Positions 34,338-55,595 of a stretch of DNA of 64,000 bases are shown here, in pieces. The stretch comes from Paracoccaceae bacterium (GTDB lineage: Bacteria; Pseudomonadota; Alphaproteobacteria; Rhodobacterales; Rhodobacteraceae), in the NCBI GenBank assembly GCA_030148225.1, contig JASBTX010000018.1, forward strand, positions 1 to 64,000. Reading direction: 5' to 3'. The translations under genes and the position numbers were made by a program. The notes under the pieces are model-generated. The model was not told the DNA's origin and ran no database searches. It saw only the letters and a list, made by a program, of their open reading frames with translations. Numbering within the stretch: position 1 is the first letter of the stretch; each line of letters starts with the position of its first letter.

Positions 34338-35033
34338 TCAGGTGCGGGCCTGCTCAAATGCCTGCCACGCGGCCTCGAACCGGGCATAGTCGAAATCGGG
34401 GTCGCGGGCAGCCTCCAGCACGATATTCTCGGTGGCCTGCAGCTTGGCGATGGCGCTTTCCAGTTCGGCGGCATAGCCGTCGGGGATGATCAGCGCGCCG
34501 TGCCGGTCGGCATGGATCAGGTCGCCGTCGCAAATGCTTAGCCCGAATATCGTCACGTCGCCCGCGATTTCGCGCACATGCACAAAGCCGTGGCTGGGCC
34601 CGACCGATCGGGCGATGACCGGAAAACCTTCGGGCAGATCGCCCAGATCCCGCATGACGCCATTGGTCAGCGCCCCCGAAAGGCCAAAGCCCTTGTGCAC
34701 GGATGTGTTGATCTCCCCCCAGAACGCGCCCACCGCACCGTCGCCATCCATATCCTCGACCACGGCGATGGCCGGTCTGGGGCCGTCGGCCATGTGCCGG
34801 TAATAGGCCATGCGGCGTGCGCGGATCATTTCGGCGGGCTCATCGGGCGGGGCAAGGGCGGCGATGCGCGCGGTTTTGGCGTGACCGACCAGTGCCGGCG
34901 CGGTCGGGTCACTGGACAGTACCGTACCACGGGTAAACCGGTCAAAACCGCGTTTACCCTCGATGACTTCGATGGCGTTGCAGACGGTGGGGGTGTCGAC
35001 CGATCTGAGCAGAGAGAGGAGGGCAGGTGTCAT
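34338..35033 (-). CDS. RraA-like protein (HMG/CHA aldolase / demethylmenaquinone methyltransferase-like family)
   Basis: 'GHAKTARIAALAPPDEP', 'GAFWGEINTSVHKGFGLSGALTNGVMRDLGDLPEGFPVIARSVGPSHGFVHV', RraA fold. Start overlaps the upstream stop (ATGA). Confidence 0.85.
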   Translation of the reverse strand: MTPALLSLLRSVDTPTVCNAIEVIEGKRGFDRFTRGTVLSSDPTAPALVGHAKTARIAALAPPDEPAEMIRARRMAYYRHMADGPRPAIAVVEDMDGDGAVGAFWGEINTSVHKGFGLSGALTNGVMRDLGDLPEGFPVIARSVGPSHGFVHVREIAGDVTIFGLSICDGDLIHADRHGALIIPDGYAAELESAIAKLQATENIVLEAARDPDFDYARFEAAWQAFEQART

Positions 35034-36151
35034 ACCCGCGCTGCCCCCTCGGTAAGCGCGCCAAGCTTGGCATAGGCGATATCGGGATCGACCGCGCCGA
35101 AACCGGCGAATGTGCCAAAGCCGCAATCGCTGCCCGCGATGACGCGTTCGCGCCCGACAATATCGACAAAGCGCGCGATCCGCTCGGCCACGAGATCGGG
35201 ATGCTCGACAAAATTCGTCGTCGTGTCGACAACCCCGGGCACCAGCACCTTGTCATCTGGAATATCGGCCTTGCGGTCGCGGAACACCGTCCATTCATGT
35301 CCGTGACGCGGGTTCGAGGTCTCGAACAGGACATAGCGCGCATGGGTCGACATCAGCGTGTCGAACATCTTGGCCATCGGGATGTCACAGACATGCGGGC
35401 CCTCGTAATTGCCCCAGCAGATATGCACGCGCACTTTCTCGGCGGGTATCCCTTCCAGCGCGTGGTTCAGCGCCGCGACATGCGCATTGGCGATGGCGAT
35501 AAACTCGTCATCAGAGAGATCATTAAACAGCATGTGCCGCGACAGCGCCAGATCGGGGCAGTCCAGCTGCAGATCAAGCCCCGCGTCAACGATGGTGCGG
35601 TATTCCTCGCGCATGACATCGGCCAGCGCCGCCAGATAGGCCTCGCGCGAGGGGTAGTGGTCGTTTTGCAGGAAGAGCGAGATCACGCCGGGCGAGGCGG
35701 CATTCATGAAGCCGCGCGCGACACCCGCATCGGCCATGGCCGATTTCAGGTTGGCGATGTCTTTCTCCAGCTCGCCATTATTCTTGCTGCGAATCTCACC
35801 CACGCACATGGGCCTTGCATATTTCGGCGTGCCGCCATCATCGGCAAGCCGCGCCAGAAAGCTTGGGAATTGCTTCAGATCGGCGGGCGCGTTACGCGGG
35901 CTGTCGCCGTCAAAGCCGGTATAGCGGTCTTTGACATAGGTGGCATATGAAATCTTAGAGGTTTCACCATCCGACACGATGTCGACGCCGGCAGATTTCT
36001 GCCGCGCCACCGTGTCCGCGACCGCACGGGTCATGCAGGCATCAAACGCCGCCTGATCAAAGGGTTTTTCATGCTCGCGCGCAAAGATGAAATCCACCAC
36101 CTCCTGCGTGCGGGGCAGGCTGCCGACATGGGTTGTATTGATCCGGGTCAT
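35030..36151 (-). CDS. MetE C-terminal-domain-like protein (cobalamin-independent methionine synthase / epoxyalkane:CoM transferase-like family)
   Basis: 'THVGSLPRTQEVVDFI', zinc ligand pattern 'VHICWGNYEGPH' (HXC) plus 'IAGSDCGFGTFAGFG'. Confidence 0.85.
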   Translation of the reverse strand: MTRINTTHVGSLPRTQEVVDFIFAREHEKPFDQAAFDACMTRAVADTVARQKSAGVDIVSDGETSKISYATYVKDRYTGFDGDSPRNAPADLKQFPSFLARLADDGGTPKYARPMCVGEIRSKNNGELEKDIANLKSAMADAGVARGFMNAASPGVISLFLQNDHYPSREAYLAALADVMREEYRTIVDAGLDLQLDCPDLALSRHMLFNDLSDDEFIAIANAHVAALNHALEGIPAEKVRVHICWGNYEGPHVCDIPMAKMFDTLMSTHARYVLFETSNPRHGHEWTVFRDRKADIPDDKVLVPGVVDTTTNFVEHPDLVAERIARFVDIVGRERVIAGSDCGFGTFAGFGAVDPDIAYAKLGALTEGAARV

Positions 36152-37113
36152 GAATGTCCTCCTGTAAATCCCTGCGTCAGGCCTGCAGCGTCGTCATTGC
36201 CGCGTATCCGGTAAATCGCGGCCTCTCCGGTCATCGCAGGGGTCAGGCTGCGCGACATGCCGGGTGGAACCAGAACGGTATCGCCGGGGGCGATGGTGGT
36301 ATCGCCGTCATCGGTGCTCAGATTCCAGTGCCCGGTCATTCCCATCAGAACTTCATGCCTGTCAAAGGTATAAGGGTCATCCTTAATGGAATTTCTCGAC
36401 AGGAAATGAATGTCGAAACCGGGCTTGTCCTGCAAGATCGCCCCATCGCCGACGATATGTGCAGGGCCGTCTGCCGACATGGCCATCATGTCCCAGTACC
36501 GCGCCACATAGCCGGGAATGACATCGCGCGCGGAGGGTTCGGGAAAGGCGGCCAGCGCCGCATCATCCAAAAGCGGCATCGGCCTGACCCCGTCGGGCAA
36601 CGCCTCGCCCTTTTTCGTGTCGAAAAGCTTGCCCGTTTCTGAGAGGACCAGCCCGTGATCGGCGGCGTCCTCGATCACCTGCGGTGCCCAGACGACACCG
36701 CCACCGGCATCGTCGCCACCCAGTATCGCCATGATCATCCCGTAATCGGTGCCGATATTTTCAAACCCCCGGAATATGCCGGTAGGAATGTTGAAAATAT
36801 CGCCCGGTTCCAGCACGACCTCGCCCGCGGTCCCCCAGCGCCCCCAGAAAAAGCGCCAGCGCCCGGAAAGAACGAAAAACACCTCGGCCGTGCGGTGGGA
36901 ATGCAGGCTGTTGCGGCATTTGGGCGGCTGTCCGGCGGCACCGATATTGAAGCCGGGGGTCTCGGCGATATGCACGTGCTGATCGGGGCTTTCCGATACC
37001 CCGCCACCGATGATGGTAAAGTTTTCCTTTTGATCGCTTCCCGGCGTGTGGGCGTCGATAAACGCGGTTTTGCAGGGGACGAGTTCGCCATAGCGAACGA
37101 TCTGAACACTCAT
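36148..37113 (-). CDS. Bicupin protein
   Basis: 'PPKCRNSLHSHRTAEVFFVLSGRWRFFWG...GDIFNIPTGIFRGFENIG' and second cupin-like 'FDRHEVLMGMTGHWNLSTDDGDTTIAPGDTVLVPPGM'. Confidence 0.85.
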   Translation of the reverse strand: MSVQIVRYGELVPCKTAFIDAHTPGSDQKENFTIIGGGVSESPDQHVHIAETPGFNIGAAGQPPKCRNSLHSHRTAEVFFVLSGRWRFFWGRWGTAGEVVLEPGDIFNIPTGIFRGFENIGTDYGMIMAILGGDDAGGGVVWAPQVIEDAADHGLVLSETGKLFDTKKGEALPDGVRPMPLLDDAALAAFPEPSARDVIPGYVARYWDMMAMSADGPAHIVGDGAILQDKPGFDIHFLSRNSIKDDPYTFDRHEVLMGMTGHWNLSTDDGDTTIAPGDTVLVPPGMSRSLTPAMTGEAAIYRIRGNDDAAGLTQGFTGGHS

Positions 37114-37122
37114 TTGTGCCTC

Positions 37123-38091
37123 TTACATGTTGGCCAGCAGGATCTGTTTCCAGACGGCGGTTTCATCGAAAAGCGTGTATTCACGGCGCAGGCCCCAGGG
37201 GCCGAACTCGGCATGGGTGGCCCCCATCACATGCACCTCGGCCCCCGTGGGCGCGCCAAAGCTGCCCCAGCCTTCGTGTTTGCCCGTCAGGCCCCAGCGT
37301 ATCGCGGCGCGGGGGGGCATCATCGGGTCCTCGCGCCCGATCTGGTGATCGATCGTGAAACGGGCATTGGGAAAGCTTGCGCGCAGGCCCATCCAGAACT
37401 CATCGGCATCGCCATGGCTCAGCCCCGACATTCCGCCGGGATATTCCAGCGCGCAGGCCCTGTCATAGGCCTCGGGGATCACGGCCATATCCGCGCCCAT
37501 GATCCGGTTCAGGATATCGGCCAGCCGCACGCCCCATTCATTATCATTGCCCCGCCCGGTATAGGGTCCGGCGATATCGGTGTCGGGGCTGAAAGGGCGG
37601 GCGCATTTTTCCGGGCCGCCCTCGGTCTCGATCTGATCGGCGGCATAGTCGCGCGGTTCCCATCCCAGCTGGCGCACGATGGCGCCCTGATCACGGATCA
37701 GCCATTCGTCGTTGATCTGGTTGGCGATGGCATGACAATCGGCGATGATCCGGTATTGCAGCGGCGTTCCGCTCGCCTCTCCATAGACACCGCTGCCGGC
37801 ATGGGTGGCCGTGGAATGCAGACGGTGCGAACTCAACATGCCGTCTTCGGGGCTGCCCGACCAGATCACATCCTCACCGTAAAGGGTGCGGTCGGGAAAC
37901 TCGGCCAGTGTCGCCATGGTGGCGGCGATCACCCCCTGATTGCCCACCACAACCGATGCCGGAGAGCGCACGACGATATCGCTGGCATAATAATCATGCA
38001 GGCTGGCGATGCGCCGGTCTTCCCAGATTTCCTTGGTAATTCCGATGATATAGTCGGGGAAATCCCTGAATTTGGGGTCAAAACCCTTCAT
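37123..38091 (-). CDS. SnoaL/NTF2-like protein (two domains)
   Basis: 'WEDRRIASLHDYYASDIVVRSPASVVVGNQGVIAATMATLAEFPDRTLYGEDVIW...', SnoaL-like polyketide cyclase pattern, repeated in the C-terminal half. Start coupled to the LacI stop (ATGA). Confidence 0.75.
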   Translation of the reverse strand: MKGFDPKFRDFPDYIIGITKEIWEDRRIASLHDYYASDIVVRSPASVVVGNQGVIAATMATLAEFPDRTLYGEDVIWSGSPEDGMLSSHRLHSTATHAGSGVYGEASGTPLQYRIIADCHAIANQINDEWLIRDQGAIVRQLGWEPRDYAADQIETEGGPEKCARPFSPDTDIAGPYTGRGNDNEWGVRLADILNRIMGADMAVIPEAYDRACALEYPGGMSGLSHGDADEFWMGLRASFPNARFTIDHQIGREDPMMPPRAAIRWGLTGKHEGWGSFGAPTGAEVHVMGATHAEFGPWGLRREYTLFDETAVWKQILLANM

Positions 38092-39110
38092 GTGCTCCAT
38101 CCTTTGGGAATGCGGGCTGATTGGCGGATGATCAGCGGGCCGTCGATTTCTATGCGCCGGGGCGATGTTTCGTGGCCCTCGATCTGGTCCATCAGCGTGG
38201 CCACGGTTTCGGTCACCATGCGGTTGGCGGGCTGGCGGACGGTGGTCAGGCCATAGGCAGGCCAGCCCGCGGTTGTCACATCATCGTAACCCACGACCGA
38301 CACATCATCCGGAACCTGCAGACCGCGTTCGTATCGCAGATAATCCATCACCGCGAAGGCCATGTGATCATTGGCCACAAACACGGCATCGGGATGGTCC
38401 GGCCCTTCAAACATGCGCGCGGCGGCGGCACGGGCGTTGTCCATCCGGAAATTCCCGGCCTCGCGCGCAATGAGCGTGGCACCACCGGCCTCGAGCCCGG
38501 CACGGAACCCTAATTCGCGGTCGCGCTGGGTCGATGCGCCCTCCCATCCGGCGATATAGCCGATGCGTTCATGCCCGCCCGCCAGCAGGAACTCGGCAAC
38601 CTTGCGCCCGCCCGCGACATTTGCCGATGTCACCGCCGAGAGCGTTTTGTCATCCTGCGACCGGTTGAAAAGCACCACCGGCACCCCGGCAGACCGGCAC
38701 CGCGCCGAAAGCTCGGATGACATCGCCACGGATGCGGCGACGATGCCATCAACCTGATAATCCAGAATTTCCTCGAGCACATTGTCGATTGTGCCGCTTT
38801 GGGTATTGGCCATGAAGATCAGCACATGATAGCCGCGTTCCTGCAACGCGTTCGAGAGACGTTCCAGCGCATCGGGATAGAACTGGTTTTCCAGATAGGC
38901 CACCACAAGCCCGATGATCCGGCTTTTGCCGCTGACCATGGCGCGCGCCAGCGTATTGGGCCGGTAGCCCAGCTCGGACGCTGCCTTGCGCACCTTTTCG
39001 GTCGTCTTGGCCGATGCCGAGGCACCCGGGGTAAAAACCCGGCTGACAGCCGACTGGCTGACACCTGCGCGCCGCGCAACCTCGAGCGAAGTGATCTTGG
39101 GCGCACTCAT
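38088..39110 (-). CDS. LacI family transcriptional regulator
   Basis: 'TSLEVARRAGVSQSAVSRVFTPGASASAKTTEKVRKAASELGYRPNTLARAM'. Confidence 0.95.
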   Translation of the reverse strand: MSAPKITSLEVARRAGVSQSAVSRVFTPGASASAKTTEKVRKAASELGYRPNTLARAMVSGKSRIIGLVVAYLENQFYPDALERLSNALQERGYHVLIFMANTQSGTIDNVLEEILDYQVDGIVAASVAMSSELSARCRSAGVPVVLFNRSQDDKTLSAVTSANVAGGRKVAEFLLAGGHERIGYIAGWEGASTQRDRELGFRAGLEAGGATLIAREAGNFRMDNARAAAARMFEGPDHPDAVFVANDHMAFAVMDYLRYERGLQVPDDVSVVGYDDVTTAGWPAYGLTTVRQPANRMVTETVATLMDQIEGHETSPRRIEIDGPLIIRQSARIPKGWST

Positions 39111-39877
39111 CAGTCGGCCGTCCAGCCCCCGTCGATCAAAAGTGCGGTGCCCGTGACCAGCGCCGCCGCGTCCGAGGCGAGATAGACCACAGCGCCCATG
39201 ATATCCTCGACCTCGCCCACACGGCCCAGCTTGATTTTATCCTCGATCCACGCACGGCGCGCGGGATTGGCAAATGTCGGCTCGGTCAGCGGTGTGCGGA
39301 TGAAGGTGGGGCAGATCGTGTTGATCCGGATACCCTTCGGGCCCCATTCGATCGCCATGGATTTGACCATGCCCTCGATCCCGTGTTTCGAGGCCGCATA
39401 GACAGACCGGTCGATGCCGCCGACATGGCCCATCTGGCTGGAAATATGCATGATCGATCCGCCGCGTCCTGCGTCGATCATCGCTTTTGCCGTGGTCTGG
39501 CTCAGGAAATGGGCGGCGCGCATATTGACGCCCATCACCGCGTCATAATCATCCGGCTGCGTTTCGGTTGCAGGGGAATGCCGTGCCAGACCGGCAGAAT
39601 TTACAACAATATCAAATATCTGACCGCCGACCTTCGCGTCAATCATCTCCAGATCAGCGATATCGAGGACCAGCGCCTCTGCCGACATGCCCGCATCTGT
39701 CATCGCGCCGACTGCGTCATCCAGCCGCCCGGCACCGCGCGCGGCACAGATCACATGCGCCCCTGCCTCGGCCAGGGCAACAGCGCAGCCAAGACCAATC
39801 CCCGAACTGGCCCCGGTCACCAGCGCGTGGCGGCCATCGAGGCGGAATGAAGGGGTGCGGGGAAGGGTAAGTGTCAT
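39110..39877 (-). CDS. SDR family oxidoreductase
   Basis: 'ALVTGASSGIGLGCAVALAEAGAHVICAARG', 'YAASKHGIEGMVKSMAIEWGPKGIRINTICPTFIRTPLT'. Confidence 0.93.
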   Translation of the reverse strand: MTLTLPRTPSFRLDGRHALVTGASSGIGLGCAVALAEAGAHVICAARGAGRLDDAVGAMTDAGMSAEALVLDIADLEMIDAKVGGQIFDIVVNSAGLARHSPATETQPDDYDAVMGVNMRAAHFLSQTTAKAMIDAGRGGSIMHISSQMGHVGGIDRSVYAASKHGIEGMVKSMAIEWGPKGIRINTICPTFIRTPLTEPTFANPARRAWIEDKIKLGRVGEVEDIMGAVVYLASDAAALVTGTALLIDGGWTAD

Positions 39878-40923
39878 GCCGCGTCTCCGATGCCAGTGAT
39901 TGGCCCGGTCGGGCGTGCCTTGTTGAACTCGCGCAGCCGCGCCATGACATCGACGCCCAGTTGCCGGTAGACATGCAAAAGGTCCACCATCACCCAGTTT
40001 TCGCGGATGCGTCCGTCCGGCCCGCGCCGCCAGAAATCAAGCGAACGCATCTCGAGCGGCTGACCGGCGGGCGCGATTCCCATCCAGCCATCATGGGTCA
40101 ATGTCTGCTTCATGTCCGGCCAGCCGGTGACGCCCGCATAATCGCCATCCCCGAAGAAATGATGGGTGATCGCCTCGGCATGCTGCCCCCGGTCCGGCAT
40201 GGCGCGCAGAAACGGGATCTGGTGCCAGTTGCGAAATCCGGCGATGCCGCGGGCCGAGCCGATGCCCGAAGGCCCGTACCAGTTCATGCGCTCGTGCCAG
40301 TAGCGCGGCATTTCCATCGCCTCGGCAGGTTCCCGGGGGTGGCGCGTCATCGCCTTCAGCATGTCGATAATGTGCTGGCGCGTCTCGCGAGAGCGCGCCG
40401 GGTCGCCTGCCGCGGGCTGAAGCCCGTCCAGTGTCATCGGGGCAGGGGGGCACCACTCGCGCCCCAGCGACGGCGCCATGGGCCATGCGTGGGCCTGCAT
40501 CATCACCTCGGGCAGATCCCAGATCATCTGCGTCTCGACGACCCGGCCATCCTCGAAACGGTAGAACTCGTGAAACCGCATATGCGCCAGATGGCCCGTT
40601 GGCGGAATATCCAGAAACGGCGCGGCAAAGGTGCCGCAATAGAAACCGCCGGCACCCAGCCAGAGATGTCCGTGCTCGTCTTCGCCCGCGATCACGATAT
40701 AGTCGCGCCGTTCGGCATCGGGCATGGCCGCTGCCAGCGGCATCATCAGCACGTCCCAATACCCTTGCGCACCGGTCGCCGCATCAAACGGATGGCAAAG
40801 GCGCAGCTCGGCATCCGGCGCGATCACCGCATCCAGCGCGCGCCTCGCCCCGTCCGAAATGCCATCGGCCAGGGCCGCGCGCAGCGGCTGAAAGGCGGAT
40901 TTGGCATCGGTGGCTGGGTTCAT
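39874..40923 (-). CDS. SnoaL/NTF2-like protein (two domains)
   Basis: '[39 protein letters not shown]' and '[31 protein letters not shown]'; start ATG overlaps the upstream stop. Confidence 0.8.
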
Positions 40924-42248
40924 TCCGCCGCCTCGCGGTGGGGTGCGGCCTGACCATAGGGCAGGTTGATACCGCCATAGCGGCGCACGCGGATATTGCA
41001 TTGCTCGGCATGGCCCACGAACCCTTCCAGCATGCAAAGGCGAGAGCCGTATTCGCCGATCAGCGTCGCGGCCTCGTCGGTCGTGACCTTCTGATAGCTG
41101 TGGGTCTTGAGGAACTTGCCCACCCAGAGCCCGCCGGTATAGCGCCCGGCCTTTTTCGTGGGCAGCGTGTGATTGGTGCCGATCACCTTGTCACCATTGG
41201 CCACGTTGGTGCGCGGCCCCAGAAACAGCGCGCCATAGCTGTGCATGTTTTCCAGAAACCAGTCATCGCGGTCGGTCATGACCTGCACATGTTCGTAGGC
41301 CATGTCATTGGCAACGCTCAGCATTTCGTCATAGGTATCGCACAGGACGATATCGCCGTAGTCAAGCCAGCTGGCCTCGGCGGTTTCGCGTGTCGGAAGG
41401 ATTTCCAGCAGGCGCGTGATCTCGTCCATCGTGGCCTCGGCCAGTGACCGGGAATTGGTGATCAGGCAGGCGGGCGAGTTATAGCCATGCTCTGCCTGCC
41501 CCAGAAGGTCGGTCGCGCAAAGCTCGCTGTCAACGCTGTCATCGGCGATCACCATCGTCTCGGTCGGGCCCGCAAAAAGGTCGATACCGACCTTGCCGTA
41601 AAGCTGCCGCTTGGCCTCGGCGACAAAGGCGTTGCCGGGGCCGACCAGCATATGCACAGGCTCAATGCTTTCGGTGCCCAGCGCCATGGCACCCACCGCC
41701 TGAATGCCGCCCAGGCAGTAAATCTCGTGCGCGCCGCCCAGATGCATCGCGGCCACGATGGCGGGGTGCGGTTCTCCGTTCTGGGGGGGGGCGGCGGCGA
41801 TGATGCGCGGCACACCCGCGACATTGGCCGTCAGCACCGACATATGCGCGCTGGCGACCATTGGAAACTTACCGCCCGGGACATAGCAACCGACCGACTG
41901 CACCGGAATATTACGATGCCCGAGGATCACGCCGGGCAGGGTTTCGACCTCGATATCCGTCATCGACGCGCGCTGCGCCTCGGCGAACCGGCGGATCTGA
42001 TCCTGGGCAAAGCGGATATCGGCCATGTCGCCGGGCGAGACCTTTTGCATGGCCGCCGCAATCTCGCTGTCGCTCAGGCGAAAGCTGGCCGGCGCGTAAT
42101 TGTCGAATTTCTGCGACAGATCACGCACCGCCGCGTCGCCGCGCGCGGCAATATCGGCCAGTGTCCCTTCGACGACCTGACGCACCTTGGCGTCATCTTC
42201 CGCCTTCTCGGCTTCGGGTTTGCTTTGCTTCAGAAATTGAATTGCCAT
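40920..42248 (-). CDS. Histidinol dehydrogenase-family protein (HpsN-like alcohol dehydrogenase)
   Basis: '[36 protein letters not shown]', '[35 protein letters not shown]', '[18 protein letters not shown]'; catabolic context. Confidence 0.88.
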
Positions 42249-42257: not shown

Positions 42258-42788
42258 TCACTCTTGCGGACGCGGGGCGGTTGCCTCCCCGCGGTCATAT
42301 TTTTCCCATCCATGGCCCTGGAACACGTCAACGCCAAGCTGGGCCAGAACATGCGGAAAATCCACCATGACCCAATTGTCCGATATGCGGCCATCTTCGA
42401 CCTTCCAGAAATCCATGTACCTGATTTCGATGCGTTTTCCGGTTGGGGCGACCCCCATGAACTCACCCGTATGGCTGGCCTCCTGACGGCCAAAGGCAGC
42501 GGCCCATTCCCCCATGTAAAGCCGCGCTTCATCCACACAGACCTTGTCGGAAAACGCCGCCTGAAACGGGCGCTGCCAATTGTCCTGAAATTCGCGCAGC
42601 CCGGTTTTTGTCCCGCAGCCCTGATTGCCCATCCAGCGAAAACTCTCGGCAAAGAACTGACCGATATCATCGATACGGTGATCGTTCAGCCCGTCGACCA
42701 TGCCCTCGATCACGGCGCGGGTTTCCCCGGTTCTTGACATATCCGTGTCGCGGCTCAGAACAGCCTGTTCAGGACGGGAACCTTTCAC
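42258..42788 (-). CDS. SnoaL/NTF2-like protein (single domain)
   Basis: 'MGVAPTGKRIEIRYMDFWKVEDGRISDNWVMVDFPHVLAQLGVDVFQGHGW'; start overlaps the stop of the upstream SnoaL-like gene. Confidence 0.8.
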   Translation of the reverse strand: MKGSRPEQAVLSRDTDMSRTGETRAVIEGMVDGLNDHRIDDIGQFFAESFRWMGNQGCGTKTGLREFQDNWQRPFQAAFSDKVCVDEARLYMGEWAAAFGRQEASHTGEFMGVAPTGKRIEIRYMDFWKVEDGRISDNWVMVDFPHVLAQLGVDVFQGHGWEKYDRGEATAPRPQE

Positions 42789-43780
42789 GTCGCACTCCTT
42801 TCAGCGGCAAAAAGGTCGTATCCCATCTGCAAAAGCACATGCGGGATATCGACAAAAACCCAGTTCTCCGCCAGCCGGTCACCTTCGCGCCGCCACCAGT
42901 CCGACACGCGCATATAAAGCCGCTTGCCGGTGGAGGGTTGATCAAGGAAGGGTTTGGCCTGAACGGCATTCAGCGACGGCCAACCGCCCGAGCAGATGAA
43001 ATCGCCATCGGCAAACCGGGTGAAATGCTGTGTTTCGCTGCCGGGGACGGCGCCGCCGATCCATTCGCTGAAGGTGTTTTCAAAGGGGACCTGAAAACCG
43101 GCGAAATCCTCGATCCCGATAAAGCTGCCAAAGGCTGCGGGCCCGTACCAGATCATGTTGTCATGCCAGAAGGGGCGCCATGCCTCATCGCGCGTGGCGA
43201 GCTGGCGCAGCATTTCCGTCACCAATGCCACCGAATCCGCCGAATGGGCCGGATCACTTTCATCCCAACGCAGCCCGTCCTGACCAAGCGGGCCGGGCAG
43301 GTAGCCGGTAAAGCCGCGCGCGTGCCCCGGGCTGGTTTTGATCGGCCATTGCCCGGCGGCGATCATCAGTTCCGGGATGTCGAGATAGATATAGCTTTCG
43401 ACGGCACGCCCGGCCTCCATCCGGTGAAACTCGCCAAAGCGCAGATGGGCAAGGGCGCCCGTTGGCCGGATGCCGAGCCATGGCTGGCTGAAACGCCCGC
43501 TGTAATAGCCCGTGGCCGTCACCCAGCCCTGGCCCGCATAGCTGCCGCCGAAGGCGATGTAATCACTGCGCTGAAGGCCCGTGAAACTTGCCCGCAAATC
43601 ATCAAGGAACCGCGCGCGATAGGCCCGCCCGCCGGTGACCGGTTCAAATGGATGGACAAGATTGATCTTGCCGTCCTCGGCAAAAAACGCATCGATCGCG
43701 GCATCCGTGTCGGTCGCCTGCATGCGTCTTTGCGCCTCGGCAAAGCGTTTCAAAGCGGCCTTGTTGGCGGACATGCCCAT
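42785..43780 (-). CDS. SnoaL/NTF2-like protein (two domains)
   Basis: 'LGIRPTGALAHLRFGEFHRMEAGRAVESYIYLDIPELMI' and 'DWWRREGDRLAENWVFVDIPHVLLQMGYDLF'. Confidence 0.8.
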   Translation of the reverse strand: MGMSANKAALKRFAEAQRRMQATDTDAAIDAFFAEDGKINLVHPFEPVTGGRAYRARFLDDLRASFTGLQRSDYIAFGGSYAGQGWVTATGYYSGRFSQPWLGIRPTGALAHLRFGEFHRMEAGRAVESYIYLDIPELMIAAGQWPIKTSPGHARGFTGYLPGPLGQDGLRWDESDPAHSADSVALVTEMLRQLATRDEAWRPFWHDNMIWYGPAAFGSFIGIEDFAGFQVPFENTFSEWIGGAVPGSETQHFTRFADGDFICSGGWPSLNAVQAKPFLDQPSTGKRLYMRVSDWWRREGDRLAENWVFVDIPHVLLQMGYDLFAAERSAT

Positions 43781-43784
43781 CGAT

Positions 43785-44666
43785 CTAACCCTTGACCGCA
43801 CCCGCCGTCAGGCCGCTGACGATCTGACGCTGGAAGAACATCACAAGGATAAAGAGCGGCACGGTCGCCGAGACCACGGCGGCAACGGCAAACATCACGT
43901 TGCCTTCGGTATAGGTCGTGCCCAGATAGGCCGCGATTTCGGGGATCATCGTGCGGTTTTCTTCGGACAAGAGCATCGCCGTTACCGCAAAGTCGTTATA
44001 GGCCAGCAGAAAGCTGAAGAGCCCGGTCGTGATCACGCCCGGCCACATCACCGGAATGATCACGTGACGAAAGGCCTGAAACTGGGTGCAGCCATCGACC
44101 TTGGCGCTTTCGTCCAGTTCCTTGGGAATGTTCTGAAAGAACGAATGCAGCATCCAGAGGGTGAAGGGCTGGTTGATCGCCACCAGCACGATGATCGTTG
44201 TCGGCAGGATGCCCCAGAGGTTCCATTCAAAGAACGGCAGCAGATAGCCCGAGACCAGCGTGATCGGCGGCATGGCGCGAAAAATCAGCGCCGTGATCAG
44301 CAGCCAGAACGTGTATTTATGCCCCGAGCGCGACAGGGCGTAGCCCCCCAGCGTGCCGAATGTCAGCGAAGTGCAGACAACGAAGAAACAGACGATGAAG
44401 GTGTTGATGACGTTGCGCCAGAATTCTTCCTGTATCCAGGCACCGCGATAGCCGGCCTCGGTAAAGGCGCTGCCATATTCGGCCTTGGTCCGCTCACCCG
44501 TCAGCGCATAGGTCCAGTCCGCGATGGAAAAGAAATCCAGCTCGACCTTGAAGCTGCCCCATGCCGTCCAGATAAAGGGAAAGGCCGCGGCGATCAGCCA
44601 GATAATGGCAAAGCCATAGATCGTGATCCTGAGGCCCAGCGGTTTTCGTTGCGCAGCGCTTGCCAT
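43785..44666 (-). CDS. Carbohydrate ABC transporter permease (MalG/CUT1 type)
   Basis: Multi-TM, EAA-like motif 'ELDESAKVDGCTQFQAFRHVIIPVMWPGVITTGLFSFLLAYNDF'. Confidence 0.92.
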   Translation of the reverse strand: MASAAQRKPLGLRITIYGFAIIWLIAAAFPFIWTAWGSFKVELDFFSIADWTYALTGERTKAEYGSAFTEAGYRGAWIQEEFWRNVINTFIVCFFVVCTSLTFGTLGGYALSRSGHKYTFWLLITALIFRAMPPITLVSGYLLPFFEWNLWGILPTTIIVLVAINQPFTLWMLHSFFQNIPKELDESAKVDGCTQFQAFRHVIIPVMWPGVITTGLFSFLLAYNDFAVTAMLLSEENRTMIPEIAAYLGTTYTEGNVMFAVAAVVSATVPLFILVMFFQRQIVSGLTAGAVKG

Positions 44667-44669: not shown

Positions 44670-45698
44670 TCAGACCTTTCCCTTGAAATCGCGCCACGTG
44701 CGCACCAGCACCGGCGAAAGCAGAATGGCCACACCGATGATTGTCAGAACCGACGAGGCCGATGCCGACGAAAGCTGCCGGGTCTCGCCCCCAAGGTCGT
44801 TGAAGATGAACCAGCTGAGCGTCTGGGCATGCGCCTGCGCGTTGAAGCCGACGATCGGCTCGAAGACGCGGAAATTATCCATCAGCTGGATGAGCGCAAC
44901 AAAGGTCACAAGCGGCATCAGGTGCGGCACGATCACGTAGCGAACCTGCTGCAGGCGCGTGGCACCGTCGATCTGTGCGGCCTCTACCTGATCCTGTGGA
45001 AGGGTCTGCAGACCCGCGTAAAAGATGACAAAGGCGAAGGGCGCGGCATGCCAGACCCCGTAGACAATGATCGACACCCACATCAGCCCGGTCGACGCCT
45101 TGAGCGAAAGTGACGGATCACCGGCCAGAAACTGTATGAAACTGCCCAATATGCCCCGGCTGTCGATCATCCAGAACAGCACCAGCGACCCGATCAGCGG
45201 GGTTACCACGAAAGGCAGGAGTGAGAAAAAGATCACCAGCCCGCGCAAACGTTCGTTCAGCGCGTTGACTGTCAATGCAATGATCAGACCCAGCAGAATG
45301 ACCAGCGGCGAGACCACGAAAGTAAATGTCAGCGTAAAGGCCATGGCCCGGTAAAAGGGCAGGTTGCCCAGCTTGTCGAAATATTCGCCCCAGCTTTGCG
45401 AGCTTGACCAGGCCTCGCGGGCCTCGGTGATGGCAAGATGCCCCCGGTCAAAGAAGATTTCCAGTCCGACGAAACGCCCCAGCGGTTCGCGTTCGCGCAA
45501 TTCCCGCGTGGCGTCCTGATCGATGGTGGTTTCGGTGGTACACCCGACCAGCGGCGTGCAGTTTTCTACCTCGATCAGTACCGCCGGATGCGGCGCATAG
45601 ATCGACTGCAACACGACCGAGACCAGCGGAAAGGCGATAAAAAGCAGCATCGCCGCACCGGTCGGCAGAAAAAACCAGAAAAAGGTACTGTGTCGCAT
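44670..45698 (-). CDS. Carbohydrate ABC transporter permease (MalF/CUT1 type)
   Basis: EAA motif 'DQVEAAQIDGATRLQQVRYVIVPHLMPL'. Confidence 0.92.
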   Translation of the reverse strand: MRHSTFFWFFLPTGAAMLLFIAFPLVSVVLQSIYAPHPAVLIEVENCTPLVGCTTETTIDQDATRELREREPLGRFVGLEIFFDRGHLAITEAREAWSSSQSWGEYFDKLGNLPFYRAMAFTLTFTFVVSPLVILLGLIIALTVNALNERLRGLVIFFSLLPFVVTPLIGSLVLFWMIDSRGILGSFIQFLAGDPSLSLKASTGLMWVSIIVYGVWHAAPFAFVIFYAGLQTLPQDQVEAAQIDGATRLQQVRYVIVPHLMPLVTFVALIQLMDNFRVFEPIVGFNAQAHAQTLSWFIFNDLGGETRQLSSASASSVLTIIGVAILLSPVLVRTWRDFKGKV

Positions 45699-45764: not shown

Positions 45765-46994
45765 TTACTGAAGGAAGCCCTTTTCCTTGGCCGCGGCGAC
45801 ATAGGCCGCCTCGACATCGGCAAGCGCCTGTTCAGCCGATTCCTTGCCCTGCATGAAATCCGCCAGCTCGTTGCCAAGCGCGGTATGCATCAGACCCATA
45901 TAGGGCAGCATCGGATAAGGCGTGGTGCCCATCTTGGCCGCTTCGAACACGCCCACGGCGGCCTCGGTTGGCTGGTAGCCTTCGATCAGCCAGACCGCCT
46001 GCTTGGCGACCTCGGGGTCCTGCAGAATGTCAGGACGGATGCCGTTCATCATCGCAACAAAGGTCGCTTCGGCCTCTTCATCGCTGATATTCTTGGCAAC
46101 GGTCCAGCCGTCCCACCAAAGCGTCGATGCCGGCGTGTCGCCACCACCAACGGTCATCGGTCCCGCTACGGCATGGCCGGCCTTAACGGCATCAGTGACA
46201 CCCTCGGCGGTGGTCTGCGTGGCCGCGCGTGACCCCCACATGTTCAGGAGTGCGATATTGCCCGCGCGGTATTCCGCGTTGGTTGCGTTGGAGTCATGCG
46301 TCAGGAAATCGGGGTTCATGTATTCCGACAGCGCCTTCATCATGTTCAGCGCGTTGATGCCGGCCTCTGAGTTCACATTTGGCTCTGCCGTGCCGGGCTT
46401 GAAATGCGCGCCACCGTAGCCCAGGAACATGTTGTTGAATTCCTGCGCGAGGTTCCAGCCCGCCGCATAGGCACCGCCGATCGGGTTTTCCATGATGCCC
46501 TTGTCGCGGATCATCTTGGCGATATCGAGCATTTCCTCGTAGGTTTTCGGCGGCTCGACACCCAGATCGGCCAGAATGTCCTTGCGGTACATCAGGTGCT
46601 GGGCGTTGGCCATGAAGGCCACGGCCATGATATTGCCGTTGATGGTGATCAGCTGCGATTTCTGCAGACCGCCGCCATATTTCGCCACCAGATCATCCAG
46701 CGGGCGGATCACATCCTCGTTCATCAGTGCCACGATGGACGAGTTCGCGATGATCGCCGAGGTATATTCCGCCGGGTTGCCCTGCATGCCGGGAACATTG
46801 ATTTTCTGGTGGTCGGCAGTCAGGTTGGTCGTCACTTCGGCGCCCGAGCATTCTTGTGCACCCGCGCCGACCGTCTGGATCGCCGGGAATTCATTGCCCA
46901 CGATGCTGACGCGCGCCCCGATCTCGCAGGCATAGGCCGTGGTCGATGCCAGTGCGGCAAACGTCCCGGCTAGTGCAATTTTCTTCAAAAACAT
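45765..46994 (-). CDS. ABC transporter extracellular solute-binding protein (family 1)
   Basis: Signal peptide MFLKKIALAGTFAALASTTAYA; 'MYRKDILADLGVEPPKTYEEMLDIAKMIRD'. Confidence 0.92.
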   Translation of the reverse strand: MFLKKIALAGTFAALASTTAYACEIGARVSIVGNEFPAIQTVGAGAQECSGAEVTTNLTADHQKINVPGMQGNPAEYTSAIIANSSIVALMNEDVIRPLDDLVAKYGGGLQKSQLITINGNIMAVAFMANAQHLMYRKDILADLGVEPPKTYEEMLDIAKMIRDKGIMENPIGGAYAAGWNLAQEFNNMFLGYGGAHFKPGTAEPNVNSEAGINALNMMKALSEYMNPDFLTHDSNATNAEYRAGNIALLNMWGSRAATQTTAEGVTDAVKAGHAVAGPMTVGGGDTPASTLWWDGWTVAKNISDEEAEATFVAMMNGIRPDILQDPEVAKQAVWLIEGYQPTEAAVGVFEAAKMGTTPYPMLPYMGLMHTALGNELADFMQGKESAEQALADVEAAYVAAAKEKGFLQ

Positions 46995-47079
46995 TCTGTT
47001 CTCCCTGATAAGACAAGATGCGTCTTGCAAGCCCGCATCCCTGTAAACCCGCCTGAATGACGGGATCTCAAACGGGGCC

Positions 47080-48156
47080 TCAGGCCCCTATTCGCGCACC
47101 CGAAGCGGTATCGAACAGGTGGCAAATTTCGGTTGGTACCCGGATCGAGACCATATCCTCGATCTCGGCGCGGAATGACTTGTCGGCCTTGACGCTGATC
47201 AGTGTGCCGCCGATGCGGACCGTCACCATCGTCGCATCCCCCAAAAGCTCGAGCGTATAGATCGGCGCGTTGATCTGCCCGCTGCCATCCGGGGCAATCG
47301 ATGCATCCTCGGCGCGGAACCCCAGTGTGACCTGGCCGTCGGGTGCGGAAATCCCCTCGATGCGCACATGTTCCGCGTCAAAGGCACCGCCGCCGGCGGT
47401 CCCTTCGATCAGGTTCATTGCCGGGTTGCCGATAAAGCCGGCGACAAAAACATTGGCCGGGGCATCGTAAATCTCGGTCGGGCTGCCGACCTGCTGAACG
47501 ACGCCCTGTTTCATGACAACAACCCGGTCGGCCAACGTCATCGCTTCGATCTGGTCATGGGTGACGTAGACCGTGGTGACCGCCAGTTCATGGCTCAGGT
47601 TCTTGATCTGCGCCCGGGTTGAGACCCGCAGTTTCGCATCAAGGTTCGACAGGGGTTCATCCATCAGAAACACGTTCGGCTCGCGCACGATGGCGCGGGC
47701 CAGTGCCACCCGCTGACGCTGACCGCCCGACAGTTCGGCCGGTTTGCGGTGCAGGAAATCATCCAGTTCGACCATGGCCGAGGCGCGGCGCACCTTGTCG
47801 TCATGCGTGCCCGAGGCGATGCCGCGCACCTTGAGCGGAAAGCGGATATTGTCGTAAACGGTCATGTTCGGATAGAGCGCGTAGGACTGGAACACCATCG
47901 CGATATCGCGATCCTTTGGCTCCAGATCATTGACGACCTTGCCGTCGATCAGGATATCGCCCTCGGTCGCATCCTCGAGCCCGGCGATCATGCGCATCGT
48001 TGTGGTCTTGCCGCAGCCGGACGGCCCCAGAAGCACCAGGAACTCCTTGTCCGCGATGGTCAGATCAAAATTGTCGACGCCGACAAAGGATCCCCAGCGC
48101 TTGGAAATGTTGCGAAGCTGTATTTCTGCCAATGTGAATATCCCCTGAACGCGCAT
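47080..48156 (-). CDS. ABC transporter ATP-binding protein (UgpC/MalK type)
   Basis: Walker A 'LLGPSGCGKTTTMRMIAGLE', 'LSGGQRQRVALARAIVREPNVFLMDEPLSNLDAKLR', C-terminal TOBE region. A TTG start at 48132 is also possible. Confidence 0.93.
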   Translation of the reverse strand: MRVQGIFTLAEIQLRNISKRWGSFVGVDNFDLTIADKEFLVLLGPSGCGKTTTMRMIAGLEDATEGDILIDGKVVNDLEPKDRDIAMVFQSYALYPNMTVYDNIRFPLKVRGIASGTHDDKVRRASAMVELDDFLHRKPAELSGGQRQRVALARAIVREPNVFLMDEPLSNLDAKLRVSTRAQIKNLSHELAVTTVYVTHDQIEAMTLADRVVVMKQGVVQQVGSPTEIYDAPANVFVAGFIGNPAMNLIEGTAGGGAFDAEHVRIEGISAPDGQVTLGFRAEDASIAPDGSGQINAPIYTLELLGDATMVTVRIGGTLISVKADKSFRAEIEDMVSIRVPTEICHLFDTASGARIGA

Positions 48157-48160
48157 TATT

Positions 48161-48178
48161 TTTGCAAACGTATGCAAA
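48161..48178. promoter_or_regulatory. LacI-family-like operator 1 (TTTGCAAACGTATGCAAA)
   Basis: Near-palindrome with central CG; its reverse complement recurs 38 bp downstream. Confidence 0.75.
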
Positions 48179-48215
48179 AAGGCTAGTCTTGGAAGGGCGC
48201 TTATGGCAAGGATTA

Positions 48216-48232
48216 TTTGCATACGTTTGCAA
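48216..48232. promoter_or_regulatory. LacI-family-like operator 2 (TTTGCATACGTTTGCAA)
   Basis: 17-nt exact inverted copy of operator 1 in the divergent promoter region. Confidence 0.75.
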
Positions 48233-48264
48233 TTTATCTGCAAGCCGATGAAAAAAGGTGATAA

Positions 48265-49269
48265 ATGTCATTTCAGGCTGAAAAGGAAGTGGTCCGGGCC
48301 TTGTACGCTGACCTCGCCGAGGCCATCGACCCGGCAGAAGCGATTCTGAGCCGCCACATAGTACCAGAGGGGATATGGCGCGGCTATCATCCCTTCGGAG
48401 AACTCGAAGGCCCCGAGATCGTCGCGCGCGAGTTCTGGACACCGCTCAGGAGCGCGCTTAGCCACCTGCAACGCCGCGAGGACATCTTTTTTGCCGGCGC
48501 GAACGAGATTGATGGTGGCGCATCTGTCTGGGTCGTGTCGATGGGCCACCTGATGGGGCTTTTTGACCGGCCTTGGCTGGGCATTCCGCCCACCGGCAAG
48601 ATGGCGTTCCTGCGCTATTGCGAATTCAACCGTGTCCATGATGGCCGGATCCACGAAACCGCCATGTATTTTGACCTGCCGCATCTGATGGTGCAGGCGG
48701 GGCTGAACCCCTTTCCGCCACAGACGGCGGCGCATCTGGTCCAGCCCGGGCCGCAGACTCATGACGGGCTGCTTTATGCCGAAACCGACCCTGAAGAGGG
48801 GCGGAAAACGCTTGCTGCCATCAACGCCATGATCAGCGATCTGGGCCAGTGGCAAAGTGGTCTGCCGCTCGAGGAAGAGCTGCGCCGGACATGGGCCGAA
48901 GACATGATCTGGTGGGGCCCCGAAGGCATCGGTGCTACCTATACCATTCCCCGCTATGCCGCCCAGCATGCCGGACCGTTTCGCGCCGGGTTTGCCGAGC
49001 GTGGCCAGACGCGCCATATCTGCCGTCTGGCCGAGGGGCACTATGGCGGCTTTTTCGGCTGGCCCAATTTCACCGCCCGGCCCACCGGCGGTTTCATGGG
49101 GATGCCCGCCACCGGTAAGAAAGGCGAGTTTCGCGTGATCGACATCTACCGCCGGTCCGACGACAAACTGGCCGAGAACTGGGTCTTCATCGACCTCCTG
49201 CATTTCTGGAACCAGCAGGGGGTCGACATCCTGCAACGCATGAACGGACTGAAACATCATGAAAATTGA
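48265..49269 (+). CDS. SnoaL/NTF2-like protein (two domains)
   Basis: 'LGIPPTGKMAFLRYCEFNRVHDGRIHETAMYFDLPHLMVQAG' and 'IDIYRRSDDKLAENWVFIDLLHFWNQQGVDI'; paralog of the minus-strand SnoaL proteins. Confidence 0.85.
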   Translation: MSFQAEKEVVRALYADLAEAIDPAEAILSRHIVPEGIWRGYHPFGELEGPEIVAREFWTPLRSALSHLQRREDIFFAGANEIDGGASVWVVSMGHLMGLFDRPWLGIPPTGKMAFLRYCEFNRVHDGRIHETAMYFDLPHLMVQAGLNPFPPQTAAHLVQPGPQTHDGLLYAETDPEEGRKTLAAINAMISDLGQWQSGLPLEEELRRTWAEDMIWWGPEGIGATYTIPRYAAQHAGPFRAGFAERGQTRHICRLAEGHYGGFFGWPNFTARPTGGFMGMPATGKKGEFRVIDIYRRSDDKLAENWVFIDLLHFWNQQGVDILQRMNGLKHHEN

Positions 49270-50131
49270 CGCCCATCATCATCTCTGGGATCTCGGCGCG
49301 GTCGAATATCCATGGCTCATGCAGACAGGCGCGCCGCGGTTTTTCGGCGATCCGACACCCATTCAGCGGGATTTCCTGATCGATGAATTCAGTGCGATGG
49401 CCCGGGCCGAGGGGTTTGGCGGCTCGGTCCATATTCAGGTAGGTGCGGCCGATCCCTGGGCCGAGGCCTGCTGGGTTCAGTCGGTGGCCGATTCCCATCC
49501 TGAATGGCCGATGGCGCAGGTGGTGTTCTGCGATCTGACGGCCCCCGACCGCTCGGCCCAACTGGCGCGGTACAAAACGCTGCCGTCCGTGCGCGGTGTG
49601 CGCCAGATCATCGGGCGCGCGCCGGGTGAGGATGCGGTTACCGGCACCAACGCGCTCTTGGGTGATCCGGCCTTTCTGGAAGGTCTGCAGGAGGCAGGCG
49701 AATTGGGGCTCAGCTTTGATCTGCAGCTTATCCCCGAACTGATGGTGCAGACCGCCGCGGTGCTGGCGGCGGCACCCGGAACCGCTGTCGCGCTCTGCCA
49801 TGCAGGCTCGCCCCATGACCGCAGCGCCGCCGGGCTCGCGGAATGGACGGCACTGTTGCGCAATCTTTCCACGCTGGATCATGTCAGTTGCAAACTGTCG
49901 GGGCTGGGCATGTTTCAGCATGACTGGGTGACGGATGATTTCGCACCCATCGTCGACACCTGCCTCGCGGAATTTGGCGCGGACCGCTCTATGTTCGGTT
50001 CCAACTTTCCGGTCGACAGCCTCTATTCAGACTACGCGCGCCTGTCGCAATGCTTTCACGACCTCGTGCCCGACGCCGATCACCACGCCGTCTTTGGCGG
50101 CACAGCATCACGGTTCTATCACATGAGCTGA
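49259..50131 (+). CDS. Amidohydrolase-2 family protein (COG3618, sugar lactonase-like)
   Basis: 'MKIDAHHHLWDLGAVEYPWL', 'SCKLSGLGMF', 'MFGSNFPVDSLYSDY'. Confidence 0.88.
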   Translation: MKIDAHHHLWDLGAVEYPWLMQTGAPRFFGDPTPIQRDFLIDEFSAMARAEGFGGSVHIQVGAADPWAEACWVQSVADSHPEWPMAQVVFCDLTAPDRSAQLARYKTLPSVRGVRQIIGRAPGEDAVTGTNALLGDPAFLEGLQEAGELGLSFDLQLIPELMVQTAAVLAAAPGTAVALCHAGSPHDRSAAGLAEWTALLRNLSTLDHVSCKLSGLGMFQHDWVTDDFAPIVDTCLAEFGADRSMFGSNFPVDSLYSDYARLSQCFHDLVPDADHHAVFGGTASRFYHMS

Positions 50132-50352: not shown

Positions 50353-51399
50353 ATGAAACCATTTGCGCAACTGACCGCCGTGATAACCGCTGCCCTGCTG
50401 GCAAGCGGCGCACAGGCTCAACAGAACCTGACCGCTGAAACGGCGGCCCCGTCCAGCGGGCCGGGCGTGGCCGTGCTGTCGCTGGGCGAGGCCGCCGCCA
50501 AGGCCGGCGTCGCCAACATTCAGGTGACAACGGGCCAGACCCTGACCAACTCGGTCCAGAACGTGGCCGAGGGCAAGACCGATATCGCATCGGCCCCCTT
50601 CATACTGCCGTTTCTGATGTCGCGTGCGGTTGGCCCTTACGCCAAGCTGGGCAAGGAAGAGGGCGCAGCGCTGGCCGCGAAACTCGCCGTGCTCTATACA
50701 TACCGGATTTCGGTGCAGGGGCTTTATGCCTATGACAGCGCGAATTTCCCCGGCTGGGACGGGATCGAGGGCGCCACGATCTATAACGGCCCGCCGCGCG
50801 GTGCGGCGCTGACCAATGCGCGCCTGCTGATCAAGCTGAATACCGGCCTCGAGGAAGGCAACGGATATACCGGTGTGCAGGTGAACTGGGGACAGGCGGT
50901 CAAAACGATTCAGGACGGATCGGCCGATGCCTTTGTTCTGCCGATGAGCTTTCCCGATGGTCGTCTGACCGCCGCGCTTTCGTCGGGCAACATGACCATC
51001 TGGTCGCTGCCCCTGGACGTCTACAACGGCGAGGCCTTTGCCAATGTCACCAAGATCCCCGGCACCGTTCCCGTCGAACTGCCGATCTCGGAAATGGGCT
51101 ATAACGAAGGGGTGACGGTCGTCTCTGAGGATGACATGTTCCGGGGTCCCGGCACCGTGGGCGGCGAGGTTGTCAATGTCGCGATGGATGAAGAGACGGC
51201 TTATAACCTGACCAAGGCGTTTCTTGACAATATCGACTCTGTCTACATGGCCAAGGCGCCCTTTGTCGCCAATGCATGGTTTGGTGAAACGGATATCGCG
51301 CTGACCAATATGTGCGGCGGAAACCCGATGAAATATCATCCCGGTGCCGTGCGTGCATGGGAAGAGGCGGGCTATACCATTCCCGACTGCGCCAAGTAG
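50353..51399 (+). CDS. TAXI family TRAP transporter solute-binding protein
   Basis: Signal peptide; 'GQTLTNSVQNVAEGKTDIASAPF', 'VNWGQAVKTIQDGSADAFVLP'; RBS GGGAGGAG. Confidence 0.85.
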   Translation: MKPFAQLTAVITAALLASGAQAQQNLTAETAAPSSGPGVAVLSLGEAAAKAGVANIQVTTGQTLTNSVQNVAEGKTDIASAPFILPFLMSRAVGPYAKLGKEEGAALAAKLAVLYTYRISVQGLYAYDSANFPGWDGIEGATIYNGPPRGAALTNARLLIKLNTGLEEGNGYTGVQVNWGQAVKTIQDGSADAFVLPMSFPDGRLTAALSSGNMTIWSLPLDVYNGEAFANVTKIPGTVPVELPISEMGYNEGVTVVSEDDMFRGPGTVGGEVVNVAMDEETAYNLTKAFLDNIDSVYMAKAPFVANAWFGETDIALTNMCGGNPMKYHPGAVRAWEEAGYTIPDCAK

Positions 51400-51459
51400 A
51401 ACTTAAACCAGACTGCGGGCCCGATGCGGCCCGCAGTACCCCGCCCGAAAGCACCCGCC

Positions 51460-53808: not shown

Positions 53809-53845
53809 GATCAGAACCCTCAGGTGTCTCTGACCGTGTTCCGGG

Positions 53846-55384
53846 TCAGGCCAGCAATGTCGGGAACGGGCTCGTGTCAGTGGCGCGCATCATCTCGTCG
53901 ACCATGCGCCTTGTCAGCGCGGCGCGCGTGGCGGCATGGGCCGGATCGTCCCAGAGGTTATGCGTCTCATCCGGGTCGGTGGCGAGGTGAACGAGGTCGC
54001 CCCAGTTCTCACCGGCATAGAGGCTCAGCCGGTAATCATCGGTCAGAAGGGTCCTCAGATTTGCCGGTCTCTCGGTGAAATGCAGCTTGATCCGGGCGTT
54101 ATCCTCGTGCTCGATCAGCAGCGCCTCGCGCCGTTCCCCATTCCAGAGTGAGCGGCCCTGAATGCCGTTATAGGGCTTGAGCCCCGCCGCCTCGATCAGC
54201 GTGGGCGCGATATCAAGCGATGAACAGAGGTCATCCCGCAAACCGGCCTCTGCACCCGGTGCGCGCCAGATAAAGGGCACGCGGTTGATCGAATGGTGCT
54301 GAAACGGCCCTTTGAGCAAAAGCGAAAAGGCCCCGAGGTAATCGCCGTGATCAGAGTTGAAGATGACAATCGTGTTGTCCCAGAGCCCGCCGGATTTCAG
54401 CGCCGTCACCACCCGACCCACCGCATCGTCCACCATGGTGATCATCCCGGCGGTCAGCGCCATCGCCTCCTGCAACTGGCGTTCCGACGCCATAAAAAGC
54501 TTTTGCCTGCCGGTCTCGGCGCTTCCATCCGCATATTGCGTATGTGCGGCCCGCAAAATGGGATTGGGATTGCGATGTGCCGTGTAGGGCAGATCAACCG
54601 AGAATTCCGCCGGGTCATACATGTCCCAGTAACGCCCGGGCGGATTGAAGGGGTGATGCGGATCGGGAAAGCTGACAAAGGCAAAAAACGGCTGATCCGG
54701 GCTTTGTTCGCTCAGAAAAGCCTCGGCCCGCTCGGTCACGAAGCTGGTGGGATACAGCGCTTCGGGCAGAGGGGTGCGATAGGCCTGCGGGCAGGAATAA
54801 TTATGCGCCAGCCGGTTGGCAGGGTCTCTGAGTGTTTCCCAGTCATCGGGGCGGCGTTCTTTTAGCCAGGCGATATAATGTCCCCCGCGCGGTGCCGCCC
54901 CGTGCCCGCCGACCAGTTCAACATGGTCGAACCCGTAATAGGGCCGGGGCACCTCGTGCGGCGATCCCATGGGGCGTTCATCACGGTAGGGCCCCGCGTC
55001 CTTGTTGGCCTCGGCAATCGGGCCGGTATCGGGCGCACTGCCCCGGCGCTGCGGTGTATCGGTAAAGGTCTGAAGGTGGCTCTTGCCGATCATCGCCGTA
55101 CTGTAGCCGCCGGCGCGCAGCACCTCGGCAAAGGTGGCCTGGTTCCGGGGCAGGTTCAGCCCGTTATGCCTGAGCCCGTGCACTGACGGATAGCGCCCCG
55201 TCATGATCGAGGCGCGATTTGGCTGACAGACAGGTGTGGCCACGTTGAAATTGGTGAACCGTGTCCCTTCCGCTGCCAGCGCATCGATATGGGGGGTTTT
55301 CAACACCGGGTGGCCCGCGCATCCCAGCCAGTCCGCCCGCTGCTGATCGGTCATGATCAGCACGATATTCGGTTTTTTCTGCAT
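53846..55384 (-). CDS. Sulfatase-like hydrolase
   Basis: 'KPNIVLIMTDQQRADWLGCAGHPVLKTPHIDALAAEGTRFTNFNVATPVCQPNRASIMTGRYPSVHG'; formylglycine motif C-x-P-x-R (CQPNR). Confidence 0.93.
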   Translation of the reverse strand: MQKKPNIVLIMTDQQRADWLGCAGHPVLKTPHIDALAAEGTRFTNFNVATPVCQPNRASIMTGRYPSVHGLRHNGLNLPRNQATFAEVLRAGGYSTAMIGKSHLQTFTDTPQRRGSAPDTGPIAEANKDAGPYRDERPMGSPHEVPRPYYGFDHVELVGGHGAAPRGGHYIAWLKERRPDDWETLRDPANRLAHNYSCPQAYRTPLPEALYPTSFVTERAEAFLSEQSPDQPFFAFVSFPDPHHPFNPPGRYWDMYDPAEFSVDLPYTAHRNPNPILRAAHTQYADGSAETGRQKLFMASERQLQEAMALTAGMITMVDDAVGRVVTALKSGGLWDNTIVIFNSDHGDYLGAFSLLLKGPFQHHSINRVPFIWRAPGAEAGLRDDLCSSLDIAPTLIEAAGLKPYNGIQGRSLWNGERREALLIEHEDNARIKLHFTERPANLRTLLTDDYRLSLYAGENWGDLVHLATDPDETHNLWDDPAHAATRAALTRRMVDEMMRATDTSPFPTLLA

Positions 55385-55595
55385 CCTTGCCGCCCTGCCA
55401 TCCGGGGCCGAGTTAAGATCATTGCGCCGCCAATGCCAAGCCACCGGCACCGGGTATCCTTGGCCGGGTTGTGTATTTCATGCCACGTGGCTTCACGATG
55501 CGGACATGGCCTGTGGATAAATTCTTGCATCCCGCCCCGGCAGGCCGCAGAACGGTAGCCATAATAACAAACCAGAAACTATCGGGTATAAGACA

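Follow-up and report, generated by a model that had tools for sequence, protein, structure and literature searches.

Gene cluster and paired palindromes

The window, that is, the whole stretch of 64,000 nucleotides analysed here, carries a catabolic gene cluster in which a long series of minus-strand genes and a short plus-strand unit diverge from one intergenic region. The genes and the two candidate operators are as follows, in the order in which they are read leftwards from the intergenic region and then rightwards.

48161..48178, no strand: ABC-side operator TTTGCAAACGTATGCAAA, read in the sequence and kept in relatives
48216..48233, no strand: SnoaL-side operator TTTGCATACGTTTGCAAT, read in the sequence and kept in relatives
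47080..48132, minus strand: ABC transporter ATPase (UgpC/MalK type), first of 14 minus-strand operon genes; TTG start inferred from homologs
45765..47030, minus strand: extracellular solute-binding protein (SBP_bac_1)
44670..45698, minus strand: ABC permease 1
43785..44666, minus strand: ABC permease 2
42785..43801, minus strand: SnoaL-like protein (SnoaL / SnoaL_2)
42258..42788, minus strand: single-domain SnoaL-like protein
40920..42248, minus strand: HisD-family dehydrogenase, closest to HpsN, with Met at the sulfonate-binding His
39874..40923, minus strand: two-domain SnoaL-like protein (start inferred)
39110..39877, minus strand: SDR oxidoreductase
38088..39110, minus strand: LacI-family repressor of 340 aa for which binding to both operators is predicted (Pfam LacI and Peripla_BP_3; motif-bearing orthologs)
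37123..38100, minus strand: two-domain SnoaL-like protein
36148..37113, minus strand: cupin protein
35030..36151, minus strand: MetE-like (Meth_synt_2) protein
34338..35126, minus strand: RraA-like aldolase/decarboxylase (extent of the longest ORF; the actual start is probably more internal)
48265..49269, plus strand: two-domain SnoaL-like protein, whose gene opens the divergent unit
49259..50131, plus strand: amidohydrolase (Amidohydro_2), second gene of the divergent unit

The 14 minus-strand genes are predicted to form one transcript, as suggested by their common strand and tight spacing. The ATPase most likely starts at the TTG at 48132 (MAEIQL, ATG-started in relatives) rather than at 48243 as given by the longest ORF, and the intergenic region is therefore taken as 48133–48264. 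The nearest model for the amidohydrolase is L-fucono-1,5-lactonase, with a score far below its cut-off; the gene adjoins the SnoaL gene in many relatives too. Between 37123 and 49269, five SnoaL-fold proteins occur in a single catabolic cluster, four of them of ~325–350 aa. The one encoded at 48265–49269, the only one of the five compared with solved structures, gave weak matches only. A TAXI-type solute receptor, a fused TRAP permease and a sulfatase lie beside the regulon (50353–55450). The receptor and the permease are not kept with the cluster in relatives, and no operator of the cluster type was found for them.

The first-pass annotation had described two palindromes in this intergenic region, one carrying a 17-nt inverted copy of the other at a distance of 55 bp, and this is directly readable in the sequence. 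Both are even palindromes of 18 bp with a central CG, the first 17 nt of TTTGCATACGTTTGCAAT are the exact reverse complement of 48162–48178, and the start-to-start distance (48161 to 48216) is 55 bp. The SnoaL-side operator ends 31 nt upstream of the ATG of the SnoaL gene. At up to three mismatches, TTTGCAWACGTWTGCAAA matches no sequence in the window other than the two operators, while shuffled versions of the window gave a mean of 0.06 matches and in 0 of 100 cases two sites.

Occurrence of the motif at many unrelated loci had been named in that annotation as an observation that would speak against its reading. The genome of the organism (3.50 Mb in 44 contigs, 89% complete) was searched with patterns allowing mismatches, not with a weight matrix, and the operators at 48161 and 48216 are the only sites at 0–1 mismatch, which supports a regulon confined to this locus. 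Two further sites, TTTGCAACCGGTTGCAAA/T, appear at 2–3 mismatches (C1:38022 and C2:201033). They have a CCGG centre and are of another type.

Conservation of the pair and the sequence between the sites

LacI orthologs were collected from whole genomes and from named genomes, giving 100 loci, most at 50–80% identity, and the same gene cluster is present at most of them. Divergent SnoaL/ATPase regions were compared for the window and 52 relatives (n = 53). A palindrome pair 53–56 bp apart was found in 49 of these 53 intergenic regions, as expected for the divergent regulatory region postulated from the window alone. The spacing is 53 bp in two pairs, 54 bp in 19, 55 bp in 23 and 56 bp in five. 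In the whole-genome set, the genome whose LacI is most similar carries the pair as well, with a spacing of 54 bp. Over the 49 regions the TTGCA half-sites and the central CG hardly vary, with ~29 bits of information per site, and the central CG itself is retained in 49/49 pairs, which bears out the earlier assignment to the LacI operator type.

A weight matrix built on the 49 regions was then run on loci outside the training set. Strong sites were found at related LacI loci from further orders and classes, where the genes are arranged differently: two sites 22 bp apart before the cluster in Sinorhizobium medicae, with more before the cupin gene and a hydrolase gene; sites 56 bp apart in a divergent region in Roseibium; sites 26 bp apart before hisD in Variovorax; sites in front of a related cluster in Roseomonas and Pantoea; and, on a Salmonella plasmid, a pair at 55 bp in the interval from hisD to lacI. 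Over 1.97 Mb of loci, 158 matches reached the strong threshold versus three in the reversed sequence; training loci are included and make up most of the 158, so this figure speaks for specificity and not for discovery. The core motif was also counted in 101 related genomes: of the 24 with a LacI ortholog, 15 have it, and of the 77 without one, a single genome does, kinship being uncorrected in this count.

The Salmonella plasmid (L162, NZ_CP030176.1) is a conjugative IncFII plasmid on which a hisD-like gene and a LacI gene form a pair with the same operator motif, which suggests horizontal spread of the core module. Two other loci (L082 and L084) lie on equal-named, equal-sized contigs (c_000000041941) binned as a Roseobacter and as a Flavobacteriia bacterium, respectively, and their LacI proteins are identical. 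Misbinning may likewise affect some of the clusters that carry SUP05 or Gammaproteobacteria labels.

When all 49 spacers were anchored on the SnoaL-side operator, two short elements became visible in fixed register. TTG occupies spacer positions 7–9 in 47 of 49 (TTGCCA in 32) against a background of 4%, and TAnnnT occupies positions 31–36 in 42 of 49 against a background of 1.9%, while the sequence between the boxes is poorly conserved. In the window these elements correspond to

48204..48209, minus strand: predicted -35 box TTGCCA of the ABC operon promoter (TTG in register in 47/49 regions)
48180..48185, minus strand: predicted -10 box TAGCCT, 18 nt from the -35 box (TAnnnT in register in 42/49 regions)

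TTGCCA-N18-TAnnnT is thus the predicted sigma-70-type promoter of the ABC operon, with a start point predicted near 48173, inside the ABC-side operator. This operator starts 1 nt downstream of the predicted -10 box and overlaps the putative start point, and a gap of 6 nt separates the predicted -35 box from the SnoaL-side operator upstream of it. The promoter emerged solely from the comparative alignment; a generic sigma-70 scan of the operator region returned none. For the SnoaL direction, inspection of the alignment by eye revealed no convincing -35/-10 pair.

These elements also account for the distance between the sites. An 18-bp operator, a gap of 6, a box of 6, the 18-nt spacer, a second box of 6 and a final gap of 0–2 add up to 54–56 bp, a range into which 47 of the 49 observed spacings fall. 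It was proposed earlier that 55 bp, about five helical turns, suits cooperative binding. In its strict form this would be an obligate pair, the spacing having been selected for dimer-dimer or tetramer contact, possibly with a DNA loop. The narrow range of 53–56 bp despite diverged sequences would fit such a pair, as would the return of ~55 bp in other arrangements (Roseibium and the Salmonella plasmid), and a cooperative reading has been given to tandem LacI sites at distances of 22 and 32 bp (PMC4052901). However, published intersite distances peak at 13, 22 and 32 bp (PMC4052901), away from 53–56 bp, and the commonest spacings, 54 and 55 bp, amount to ~5.1–5.2 turns, not exactly five. Across all loci, pairs are 53–56 bp apart in compact regions and also 22, 24, 26, 90 and 95–243 bp apart, so a multiple of the helical step is not kept. 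The long values come from long divergent regions, usually with one site close to each gene start. Single sites occur as well, at the downstream position in L039, L085 and L088 and at the upstream position in L036, L106, L113 and L124; L085, L088, L113 and L124 are divergent regions with one of the two sites.

The protein itself points in the same direction. Full-length alignments of the 340-aa LacI to solved LacI-family chains end at ~329–336 and leave few residues, so it ends about where PurR does and has no room for the C-terminal tetramerisation helix of E. coli LacI. As the spacing equals the sum of the promoter parts, a helical-phase explanation is unneeded; five turns as the cause of the spacing were set aside in favour of promoter packing. 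An obligate cooperative pair is considered improbable, and cooperative binding as such, though conceivable, is not indicated.

A division of labour, in which the SnoaL-side site would serve the SnoaL gene only and the ABC-side site the ABC operon only, deserves more weight, though we still regard it as somewhat unlikely. In the long divergent regions L040, L050, L060 and L111 a site lies near each gene start; L053, where the divergent neighbour is not a SnoaL gene, retains the ABC-side site only; and L039 has only the ABC-side site, though its locus ends ~300 nt further on. These observations fit such a division, but the Tateyamaria-type loci L036 and L106 do not: they have no divergent gene, and their sole site is the upstream one, which in L106 is separated from the ABC -35 box by 6 nt. 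The upstream site can therefore evidently act on the ABC promoter.

The cluster LacI and its recognition helix

The LacI protein (38088–39110) matches PF00356 and PF13377 above cut-off, corresponding to a helix-turn-helix and a periplasmic-binding-protein-like effector domain. Its recognition helix is SQSAVSR, and the helix-turn-helix of the orthologs is conserved through this helix. Operator bases in the family have been tied to residues 15, 16, 20 and 55 of the DNA-binding domain (Camas et al., PMC2978694), which are Gln15, Ser16, Arg20 and Val55 in the cluster LacI. Residues 16 and 20 are nearly invariant among the orthologs, residue 55 is mostly Val or Ile, and Gln15 is found in 93 of 100.

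Arg15 occurs at six loci. Sites were detectable at five of them, and at four they are of a symmetric variant, TTTGCACAC·GTG... (CAC·GTG), which is found at none of the Gln15 loci. L080 is the exception, with Arg15 and no operator change. A maximum-likelihood LacI tree requires four changes to account for Arg15, and supported branches force no fewer than three of these. Gln-to-Arg exchange at residue 15 thus arose ~4 times, three times with the matching operator change. Among the sequence data, this recurrent covariation argues best for the cluster LacI, and not another protein, as the reader of both sites. Together with the conservation of the pair and the out-of-sample sites, it upholds the earlier naming of this protein as the probable controlling regulator, and the paired palindromes are almost certainly binding sites of the repressor from their own cluster.

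The same genome contains one protein that might be held responsible instead, the LacI of an inositol-type gene cluster (L150 3713–4711). It has the near-identical helix SRSAVSR and a nearly identical outer half-site, and the site at C1:38022 (L150 8023, contig C1 of G000), TTTGCAACCGGTTGCAAA, lies inside the inositol-type cluster with this LacI of its own. Nevertheless, that site has C, not A, beside the operator centre, the gene cluster is a different one, and the two proteins share 32% identity. Other genomes contain the TTTGCAACCGGTTGCAAA site as well, and in several of them a LacI paralog of the inositol type is encoded nearby. The inositol-cluster LacI carries Arg15, Ser16 and Thr55; the base beside the centre has been linked to residues 55 and 15 (Camas et al., PMC2978694), and the distinct site is in line with this link. 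Binding of the pair by another LacI-family regulator, be it this repressor or a central-metabolism regulator, is further opposed by the motif, which tracks orthologs of the cluster LacI over rearranged loci and covaries with their recognition helix, and by the site number, since many sites would be expected for a global regulator and the genome has two. We consider it highly unlikely.

The operators of E. coli PurR and GalR have the half-sites GCAAAC and GTGTAAAC. The palindromic half-site length and the central CG are shared with the sites described here, and GalR also shares Arg-20 with G at NT-6. In contrast, PurR and GalR have a Thr-Thr-Thr or Val-Ala-Thr helix where the cluster LacI has Gln-Ser-Ala, and the cluster half-site, TTTGCAWAC, differs. 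In the literature searched, no match was found for the specific motif TTTGCATACGTATGCAAA.

Proposed regulation and the pathway under control

The sites, their uniqueness and conservation, the promoter register and the covariation with the recognition helix form the basis on which we infer binding, repression and induction. Very probably, the palindromes are operators of the LacI encoded at 38088–39110 that bracket the ABC promoter, both directions being closed until an inducer releases the repressor. As long as no inducer is present, repressor dimers would occupy both operators and so enclose the 14-gene ABC/SnoaL/HisD operon promoter. One of them would lie over the -10 edge and the start point, the other just upstream of -35 and also before the divergent SnoaL-amidohydrolase unit. 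From these positions both directions would be shut, RNA polymerase being excluded from the shared promoter region. Each site probably blocks the polymerase alone. Binding of the inducer, which is probably either the substrate taken up or an intermediate, would free the repressor and open both units. Located tenth in the operon, lacI would also limit its own synthesis by negative autoregulation.

Members of the LacI family usually act locally and regulate their own genes (PMC4052901). The local autoregulated repressors of sugar and polyol operons (Ravcheev et al. 2014, PMC4052901) share with the present system an even palindromic operator centred on CG, the position of the sites ahead of a catabolic operon with an ABC importer, a lacI gene within the operon and control of two divergent units. 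The predicted type of control is thus ordinary; the comparative support for it is unusually good.

The HisD-like protein (40920–42248) offers a view of the chemistry. Its closest solved relative is HpsN, far above the true histidinol dehydrogenases (E ~1e-110 versus 1e-76 for the best of these). HpsN is sulfopropanediol 3-dehydrogenase, in which His126 recognises the sulfonate (PMC11382572). Met is aligned to His126 in the protein from the window and in 88 of the 89 related genes scored. Identification as HpsN was rejected on this ground, and sulfopropanediol is not the expected substrate. The protein probably has a distinct dehydrogenase specificity, and a sugar-acid or polyol-like compound would be our guess for the substrate.

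A literature search on the cluster or on the combination of SnoaL, HisD and LacI found nothing relevant. Tentatively, and with somewhat less than even confidence, we suggest that the regulon represents an undescribed, widespread marine catabolic pathway combining ABC import, an HpsN-like dehydrogenase without the sulfonate His, an SDR, a fuconolactonase-like hydrolase, up to five SnoaL-fold proteins and a LacI sensor, with operators that clamp one promoter and either dimer alone silencing it.

A regulator, a binding motif and a promoter are now assigned, at the level of prediction, to a cluster that is conserved through marine Rhodobacteraceae and is also present, rearranged, in other Proteobacteria. 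Moreover, the family provides a natural case in which residue 15 of the LacI recognition helix and the operator appear to have co-evolved repeatedly. The motif can be used to define the regulon and, via induction tests, to find the substrate.
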